Source of the DNA: Alphaproteobacteria bacterium
Lineage (GTDB): Bacteria; Pseudomonadota; Alphaproteobacteria; Micavibrionales; Micavibrionaceae
Assembly: GCA_021775955.1 (NCBI GenBank)
Contig: JAJFGU010000004.1
Coordinates: forward strand, 1 to 64,000
DNA length: 64,000 bases
Direction: 5' to 3'
Shown here: in pieces, positions 54,166 to 57,019 of the stretch
How the letters are laid out: the number at the start of each line of letters is the position of its first letter
Numbering within the stretch: position 1 is the stretch's first letter
The notes under the pieces: generated by a model
Told to the model about the DNA's origin: nothing
The model's database searches: none
Seen by the model: the letters and a program-made list of their open reading frames with translations, nothing else
Made by a program: the position numbers and the translations under genes

Positions 54166-54756
54166 ATGTTTACAGGACTTATACAGGATATTGGAACCAT
54201 TCGTTCTGTCGAAGACAGGGGCGATGACGTACGGCTTGAAATTGAAACCGGTCTTGATCTTAAGAACGTGTCAGTTGGCGCGTCAATTGCCTGTTCCGGG
54301 GTTTGTTTGACGGTTACCGATAAATCAGAAAATTCATTTTTTACAGATGTTTCCAGCGAAACTTTAACAAAGACGCTTATCAAAAACTGGAGCACCGGAG
54401 ACAGGGTCAATATTGAACCGTCTTTGCGCCTTGGCGACGAACTTGGCGGTCATTTTGTGTTCGGCCATGTCGATGGTGTGGCGGAGCTGCTTGAAATCAC
54501 GCAAGACGGTGAATCGTACCGCTTCAAAATCCGCCCGCCAAAGGAGCTTGCACAGTATATCGCATCGAAGGGCTCTCTCTCTCTCGATGGAATTTCTTTG
54601 ACGGTTAACGAGGTTGAGGGCGATATATTCGGGGTCAACATCATTCCCCATACATGGGAGAACACAACGCTTGGCTCGAAAAAAACTGGCGATTTTATCA
54701 ATATTGAGATAGATATGCTGGCACGTTATGTCGCTAGAATACTAAAGGCCGCTTAG
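54166..54756 (+). CDS. ribE: Riboflavin synthase alpha subunit
   Basis: This 196-residue protein has two lumazine-binding repeats, the first starting MFTGLIQDIGTI with CSGVCLTVT, the second with HFVFGHVDGVAEL and SLDGISLTVNEV. It dismutates two lumazine molecules to riboflavin. The stop codon TAG touches the left arm of the 54757-55027 inverted repeat. Confidence 0.95.
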   Translation: MFTGLIQDIGTIRSVEDRGDDVRLEIETGLDLKNVSVGASIACSGVCLTVTDKSENSFFTDVSSETLTKTLIKNWSTGDRVNIEPSLRLGDELGGHFVFGHVDGVAELLEITQDGESYRFKIRPPKELAQYIASKGSLSLDGISLTVNEVEGDIFGVNIIPHTWENTTLGSKKTGDFINIEIDMLARYVARILKAA

Positions 54757-55027
54757 AGGGTCTATATTCACAATCTTTATACAATTCTGTGGCGTAATAA
54801 GAAGAAAGGAACAAGTTTTGACAATGATGGACATGCCAAAGCATATTCGAATTGGCAAAACGCTGCTAATTTCTTCTTATTACGCCACCCGCGGGGCGCC
54901 GCAAATTTTTGTATCTGGACTTTCAAACTGCTTGACCGTAGCTTTGGCTATGCTCTGCGCAGTTTTCAAGCCCATCTATCAAAAATTTTCTGGCGCAGAA
55001 TGGATAAAGATTGTGAATATAGACCCT
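54757..55027. repeat. Nested inverted-repeat element in the ribE-ribH gap
   Basis: Outer arms 54757-54789 and 54996-55027 match over 32 positions, with the first 24 bases (AGGGTCTATATTCACAATCT plus TTAT) perfect and one indel after. A second, perfect 18-base pair, TGGCGTAATAAGAAGAAA, lies at 54790-54807 and 54870-54887. A third pair, GCGCC..AAATTTTTG, lies at about 54896-54914 and 54978-54996. Together they predict a three-way or cruciform RNA fold. It begins right after the ribE stop and ends right before the ribH AAGGAG site. No FMN-riboswitch core is present. Confidence 0.85.
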
Positions 55028-55041
55028 AAAGGAGAAAGCTT

Positions 55042-55494
55042 ATGACACAAAAGATTGCAGTGATTTGCGCCGGGTGGAACGAAGACATTGTCGCCTCGGC
55101 CGAAAATTCTTTTAAAGCCGAAATGCAAAACAAAGGTTTTCCGGCAGAAAACATTCATGTGTTCAAAGTGCCTGGCAGCCTTGAAATTCCGTTGGCCGGT
55201 AAGAAGTTGCTTGAAGAAGGCTACGATATCGCGGTCGGCATTGGCTTTGTCGTCAATGGCGCGATTTATCGTCATGAATTTGTCGGCCAGGCGGTTGTCA
55301 GCGGTATCGTTGATGTCCAGCTACAAACCGGAAAGCCTTTTCTGTCCGTGGTTTTGACGCCGATTACCTTCAATGAGCATGTCGAAGAAAACAGAAAATA
55401 TTTCATCGACCATATGGTGCTTAAGGGCCAGGAAGCAGCCCATGCCTGTGCCGGCATGCTGGACTTTACCAGTGAGCTGAAACAAGCCGCATGA
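55042..55494 (+). CDS. ribH: 6,7-dimethyl-8-ribityllumazine synthase, RibH2 type
   Basis: This 150-residue protein has PGSLEIPLAGKKL and GAIYRHEFVGQAVVSGIVDVQLQTGKPFLSVVLTPITFNEH. The HEFV segment and VQL.T..P..SVVLTP match the decameric type II enzymes of Brucella-like alphaproteobacteria rather than the icosahedral form. AAGGAG precedes the ATG. It overlaps nusB by four bases. Confidence 0.93.
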   Translation: MTQKIAVICAGWNEDIVASAENSFKAEMQNKGFPAENIHVFKVPGSLEIPLAGKKLLEEGYDIAVGIGFVVNGAIYRHEFVGQAVVSGIVDVQLQTGKPFLSVVLTPITFNEHVEENRKYFIDHMVLKGQEAAHACAGMLDFTSELKQAA

Positions 55495-56623: not shown

Positions 56624-57019
56624 GTTCCCGCATTATGTCTAGTCCTTCAGTTTGAATTGCAGGAAATATGCTTTTCCCGCGTGTTTTGGGTTGTGTAAGG
56701 TATTGTTTTTGTTGAGTCCAGTTTTGTTAAGTAAAATATTTCGCATTTTTTTTTGAAACATTTCTCTTCCTGGAGGCAAGAGCAATCCAGAAAGCATAAC
56801 AGTGCTTTCCCCGCGCAAGCGGGGATCTAAAAAGATTCCTGCTTTCGCAGGAAATACAAAAAACTGGATTGCTTCCTCCTTCGCCAAGGCTTCGGAGGAC
56901 AGGTCGCTAGCGCTCGCAATGACAATAGGGGTTACTTTATTACTTCAGGCGCAATAGCTCATGTTGACCTACACAGTATAGGAAAATATTCATGGTTTGT
57001 CAAGCTTTAAGCGGAAGGT
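56624..57019. other. Repeat-rich intergenic region
   Basis: This 396-base gap holds the palindrome 56772-56879 and, after it, a GGACAGGTCGCTAGCGCTCG fragment followed by CAATGACAA, which is typical of dispersed intergenic repeats. The rest is AT-rich. No real gene is seen; a minus-strand frame that translates to FPAKAGIFLDPRLRGE reflects the repeat, not a protein. Confidence 0.65.
56772..56879. repeat. Compound palindromic repeat
   Basis: Outer arms GGAGGCAAGAGCAATCCAG (56772-56790) and CTGGATTGCTTCCTCC (56864-56879) pair with a few gaps. Inside are two perfect hairpins, CCCCGCGCAAGCGGGG and TTCCTGCTTTCGCAGGAA. The same core occurs as a dispersed repeat in many proteobacteria. Confidence 0.75.

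Follow-up and report, generated by a model that had tools for sequence, protein, structure and literature searches.

A candidate mobile palindrome family of Micavibrio-related Alphaproteobacteria, represented by a branched element between ribE and ribH

Results

The window, that is, the whole 64,000-nucleotide stretch of DNA analysed here (contig JAJFGU010000004.1 of the Micavibrionaceae assembly GCA_021775955.1), contains the genes ribE and ribH separated by a palindromic element at 54757-55027, a 271-nt nested inverted repeat lying on the + strand in sense to ribH. Both neighbours are real genes, the upstream one encoding a lumazine-binding domain and the downstream one a DMRL synthase domain. 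The element directly follows the ribE stop codon TAG (54754-54756, +), which forms the left side of the target, and is itself followed by AAAGGAGAAAGCTT, so placed that the native ribH ribosome-binding site AAAGGAG and start codon (55028-55044, +; ATG at 55042) lie outside it. The initial annotation had described a nested repeat exactly filling the gap between this stop and this ribosome site, with three sets of arms predicting a branched fold and with neither a gene nor an FMN-riboswitch core inside, and on each of these points it agrees with our analysis. There is no open reading frame of at least 80 aa within 54757-55027, and Rfam, including the FMN riboswitch RF00050, gave no match in the element or elsewhere in the window and nothing meaningful at a relaxed threshold.

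The predicted minimum free energy of 54757-55027 is -121.5 kcal/mol, as compared with -61.7 +/- 4.5 in dinucleotide shuffles (z = -13.4), and none of 200 shuffles was as stable. The fold is a four-way junction. Its outer arms (54757-54783 and 55001-55027; 27 nt, 96% complementary) include the closing stem P1, in which the 24-nt 5' arm beginning with AGGG (54757-54780, +) and the 24-nt 3' arm ending with CCCT (55004-55027, +) are paired at 24/24 positions in the window copy. The conserved junction motif ATTCTGT (54784-54790, +) follows, with its ATTCTG pairing with CAGAAT at 54996-55001. The long left hairpin P2 (54789-54888, +) has a perfect 19-bp base (54789-54807 with 54870-54888, 100% complementary) continued by an interrupted stem, and the right hairpin P4 (about 54895-54996, +; GGCGCNGCAAATTTTTG...CAAAAATTT..GCGC) is the part with the best sequence conservation, as judged by covariance model match and alignment. 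The fourth arm, which the initial annotation had not listed, is P3, a tiny CC-loop-GG hairpin near 54889-54895 (+). The window copy belongs to type A, without an expanded P3. In a subtype found in the same genome (L003, L005, L006/L011, L007/L008, L009, L010), P3 is expanded by approximately 30-65 nt and gains either one additional hairpin or two (GCGAAGCAAGGC..., AAACAAACCCTTTGGGTTTG).

A BLAST search of the whole source genome recovered copies of the element on several contigs, and a covariance model of P4 gave 26 matches there, which reduce to 17 copies whose right arm is intact once the weak echoes on the other strand of each palindrome are excluded; the search for further copies that the initial annotation had proposed thus found them dispersed. 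Three source contigs (C3, C16, C17) end within or beside copies (L002, L005, L012, L013) and two copies have identical left 49 bases, so that copies at contig ends are assembly-ambiguous. According to the P4 model, the family is carried by 23 of 142 genomes of the order and 14 of 54 genera, with at most 21 matches per genome, the carriers other than the source genome being mostly draft metagenome assemblies. For broader comparisons a set of 61 copies was used, representing the filtered output of a loose-anchor extractor that had given many false palindromes. Most full copies measure 270-276 bp, typically about 273 bp. In a pattern scan of named genomes, the full architecture occurred solely in alphaproteobacterial records, including Micavibrio sp. 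and one MAG labelled Emcibacter; pattern matches outside the Alphaproteobacteria fall in unrelated sequence, do not show the architecture and were discarded as chance. The element had no match among plasmids, phages or viral contigs (IMG/VR). The limited set of open-licence literature that was searched contained no description of the family.

In the three other genomes of the genus (G001, G002, G003) the ribE-ribH gap is short and the element absent, which is the empty site that the initial annotation had suggested looking for in relatives. Judged by sequence comparison, the ribE-ribH element is therefore an insertion in the source lineage only. Alignment of flanks with one of these relatives (G003) identified further empty sites, and the three that resolve best (L016, L010, L004) display no duplication longer than TA. 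Across the 61 copies the target reads YT|AR, with T at -1 in 41/61, Y at -2 in 50/60, A at +1 in 39/61 and R at +2 in 54/61. In such flanks a TA duplication is indistinguishable from a T|A join, as AGGG...CCCT entering between T and A yields the same product as GGG...CCC flanked by a TA duplication.

Two carriers (G118 and G096; L330-L369) also have shorter elements with these ends, of for example 182, 82, 38, 33 and 27 bp, and loss of whole hairpins is common among these derivatives. Solo ends are also present, and in G118 many solo AGGRTCARRMYTCA ends, approximately 14-35 bp in length, lie before genes, as do shortened elements (81 pattern matches versus 1 in a control reading). An interpretation of these solo ends as 5'-truncated retrotransposition copies was considered and not retained, since fragments this short with palindromic ends do not reveal which end was kept.

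The initial annotation had left two options, namely a miniature element inserted cleanly or a new cis-acting RNA setting RibH and NusB levels. The former is borne out by the dispersed copies, the empty sites in relatives, the constant target context and the internal-deletion derivatives. A cis-acting RNA regulating ribH (and nusB) would fit a strong covarying fold that lies in sense immediately before the ribosome-binding site of ribH, and an FMN riboswitch does occupy the same place upstream of ribH in two more distant relatives (L118, L119). However, the remaining copies precede unrelated genes, the site is empty within the same genus, and there is no match to the FMN riboswitch or any other Rfam family. 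The only regulator seen at the ribH leader, in those more distant relatives, is the ordinary FMN riboswitch (RFN element, RF00050), which shares the position of the element and has no sequence or structural match to it. A dedicated ribH regulator is very improbable.

Covariation, another check proposed in the initial annotation, is present and very strong. An alignment of 36 diverse copies (A2) yielded 87 consensus pairs, 73 of them with at least one two-sided change. Paired cells amount to 94.6%, where shuffles reach 69.6% and slid controls no more than 46.8%, and the covariation score is 0.649 versus 0.182 in shuffles. Conservation of sequence is confined to the junction (ATTCTGT, CC..GGCGC, GCGCAGAAT) and parts of P4; within ATTCTGT, the TGT is invariant and the ATT nearly so across the 36 copies. 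The sequence of P1 drifts almost freely beyond AGG...CCT, to the point that ends differ even between copies of one genome, and its 24 bp are nevertheless about 95% Watson-Crick. P1 cells comprise 237 two-sided changes, 12 one-sided changes and 33 unpaired cells, counted over related copies and hence not independent.

Strong as it is, this covariation does not tell whether the palindrome functions as RNA or is homogenised at the DNA level. Two-sided changes nearly without intermediates and an inverted core are both predicted by template switching between inverted repeats (PMC8794818, PMC8604942). The P2 hairpin core of L033/L254 (G003) has the opposite orientation to that of other copies, which is the outcome that loop inversion, through template switching or recombination between the P2 arms, would produce. 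Because intermediates are nearly absent in P1 and the P2 core is inverted in one copy, template switching is suggested, and the covariation of the arms may reflect this DNA process rather than RNA function. Hairpin-primed synthesis during transposition may explain the P1 pattern equally well. Separately, a divergent copy (G025; L318 3044-3313) gives an additional hit of the P4 model, on the opposite strand of its P2 region (G025:C30:4273-4373), a hint that the two large arms may have a common origin.

The placement of the copies relative to genes is far from symmetrical. With neighbours defined as the longest open reading frames, part of them confirmed by Pfam, the left/right orientations are -+ in 24 cases, ++ in 22, +- in 4 and -- in 3. 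In co-directional gaps, 22 copies are thus in sense and 3 in antisense, where equality is expected at random (p = 1.6e-4), and in 19 of the 24 divergent gaps it is the 3' end of the element that lies nearer to its gene start. At the left end, a T|AG stop of the preceding gene is completed by the first bases of the element, AG, in 11 of the 29 copies that follow a sense gene. At the right end, seven copies split a gene after its first codons: the joined flanks contain an earlier start a few codons upstream and in frame, and a new in-frame ATG or GTG lies 15 nt (14 in one copy) before the element end. The genes so affected include an aconitase family (leuC-like) gene (L032), argininosuccinate lyase (L037), a miaB-like gene (L268) and dxr (L305), the other three copies being L131, L194 and L267. 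Additionally, anti-Shine-Dalgarno pairing is stronger at the sense 3' end than at the flipped end (mean -5.8 versus -4.7 kcal/mol, p = 2e-4). Promoter-like scores at the 3' end are no higher than at the flipped end, and the single promoter-like site in the region equals the number in shuffles. The window copy needs no start replacement because ribH keeps its own AAAGGAG and ATG.

These features raise the alternative of a mobile element domesticated as a general 5'-leader RNA, in which selection would preserve the + strand fold itself because it serves many genes as a module for translation or stability. The sense orientation at gene starts, the constant length and conserved junction, the in-frame supply of starts and the better anti-Shine-Dalgarno pairing in sense all speak in its favour. 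On the other hand, both strands fold equally well, with the sense strand more stable in 30 of 61 copies, and G-T/A-C mismatches carry no consistent strand signature (P1 26/23, P2 54/15, apical P4 3/17), the helices disagreeing with each other and the cells not being independent. Further, the copies are mostly not at the same gene across genomes, and the lack of G-U intermediates among the two-sided changes favours a process acting on DNA. We therefore regard a general leader RNA as unlikely.

As for what might move the element, the target and the ends fit an IS630/Tc1-mariner-derived MITE mobilised in trans by an IS630 transposase, since insertion lies at a TA inside YTAR (with the T|A ambiguity described above), the ends are palindromic, internal deletions occur, and RUP offers a reported precedent (PMC2229807). 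Against this origin, the IS630 domain DDE_3 occurs neither in the source genome nor in the carriers with the most copies (G118, G098, G096), end sequences vary among copies of one genome, and over the 142 genomes IS630 is not associated with carriage (4/23 carriers versus 18/119 non-carriers, p = 0.76), a comparison among draft genomes in which later loss is possible. An IS630 derivation consequently has a rather low probability, similar to that of the leader RNA. Lower still is that of a single-stranded-DNA element recognised as a hairpin by an HUH, Y1 or REP-associated transposase, which would explain why pairing and not terminal sequence is conserved and why no long target duplication is seen; the Y1 transposase PF01797, though, is missing from the source genome and from the carriers G001, G003, G013 and G030, matching ends were found at none of the Y1 loci checked, and the target is symmetric. 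A retro-mobile RNA was likewise rejected, as reverse transcriptase (PF00078) is missing from the source genome and four other genomes (G003, G013, G021, G023). Y1 transposase, reverse transcriptase and IS630 were thus each set aside as mobiliser, being absent or showing no association with carriage, and no autonomous transposon sharing the element ends was found among the Y1 loci checked or the same-end loci in G118.

Discussion

Considering the comparative sequence data together, the window element is very probably one copy of a dispersed, non-autonomous and MITE-like mobile palindrome of Micavibrio-related Alphaproteobacteria. Comparison of copies and genomes shows the family, its insertion and its orientation bias, and the family, previously unnamed, behaves like a bacterial MITE: it is short and non-coding, it occurs in dispersed copies with empty sites in relatives, and it has terminal inverted repeats in the form of the 24-bp P1, the sequence of which, unlike in a usual MITE family, is variable beyond AGG...CCT.

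Among known repeats, RUP of Streptococcus pneumoniae is short, non-coding, palindromic and dispersed between genes, with TA termini and transcripts predicted to fold strongly (PMC2229807), and Correia elements are reported to lie for the most part just upstream of genes and to be capable of inversion (PMC10969869). The present family resembles RUP and other TA-target MITEs (Correia/NEMIS, ERIC/IRU) in consisting of short, non-coding, dispersed palindromes with TA at the termini. It differs from RUP, Correia and ERIC in being longer (about 273 bp) and nearly constant in length, in folding as a four-way junction where those form a single long stem loop, in its sense orientation, in lacking a fixed terminal sequence and in having no matching IS found. 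The Rickettsia palindromic elements (RPE) are alphaproteobacterial too, and like the present family they are selfish palindromes that come to lie in frame with genes of the host (PMC2229807, PMC10969869); they measure 105-146 bp according to the cited review and are located within open reading frames as an added peptide, whereas the present family sits at gene boundaries, where it supplies stop completion or a start. The CIR repeats of Caulobacter and Brucella, the mobiliser of which is not known, are also alphaproteobacterial and have two long hairpin arms (PMC2229807). Membership in CIR was rejected: those repeats are approximately 110 bp long, lack an end-to-end stem and contain GANTC, in contrast to the closing P1 stem and the 45 of 61 copies without GANTC in our family. 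Elsewhere in the window, an open reading frame at 56639-56887 (- strand), downstream of a fliL-like gene, has a translation containing FPAKAGIFLDPRLRGE and looks like read-through of a short palindromic REP-like repeat; CGTC-type REPs have been reported from Micavibrio aeruginosavorus (PMC3733652).

Insertion falls between the T and A of a YTAR target, with the same product as a TA duplication. In the mechanism that we propose, selection would filter the surviving copies towards gene boundaries and sense orientation, because the AG can complete a TAG stop and the 3' end may permit or provide initiation. One arm would be recopied from the opposite arm, by template switching in hairpins or by hairpin-primed synthesis during transposition, and selection would also maintain a structure recognised by a putative enzyme, so that the arms could stay complementary despite the drift of their sequence. 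The insertion between ribE and ribH is probably near-neutral for ribH, since the native ribosome-binding site is kept.

We tentatively extend this mechanism to a more specific proposal, for which the odds are clearly unfavourable: a putative enzyme would move the element by recognising the branched hairpins and not the terminal sequence, and the element would be adapted to operon junctions, its first bases re-creating the upstream stop and its last bases providing the downstream gene with a ribosome-binding region and a start, so that an essential gene could survive even an insertion within its first codons. Unusual features of the family are a branched architecture that hardly varies in length, arms that drift in concert, and a placement matching stop/start junctions. 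Overwhelming covariation is usually taken as proof of a functional RNA and may here stem from DNA template switching in a mobile palindrome, which would have consequences for all covariation-based searches for non-coding RNA. The family also illustrates how a selfish palindrome can persist when genomes are very compact, namely by inserting where stop meets start and by carrying replacements for both.
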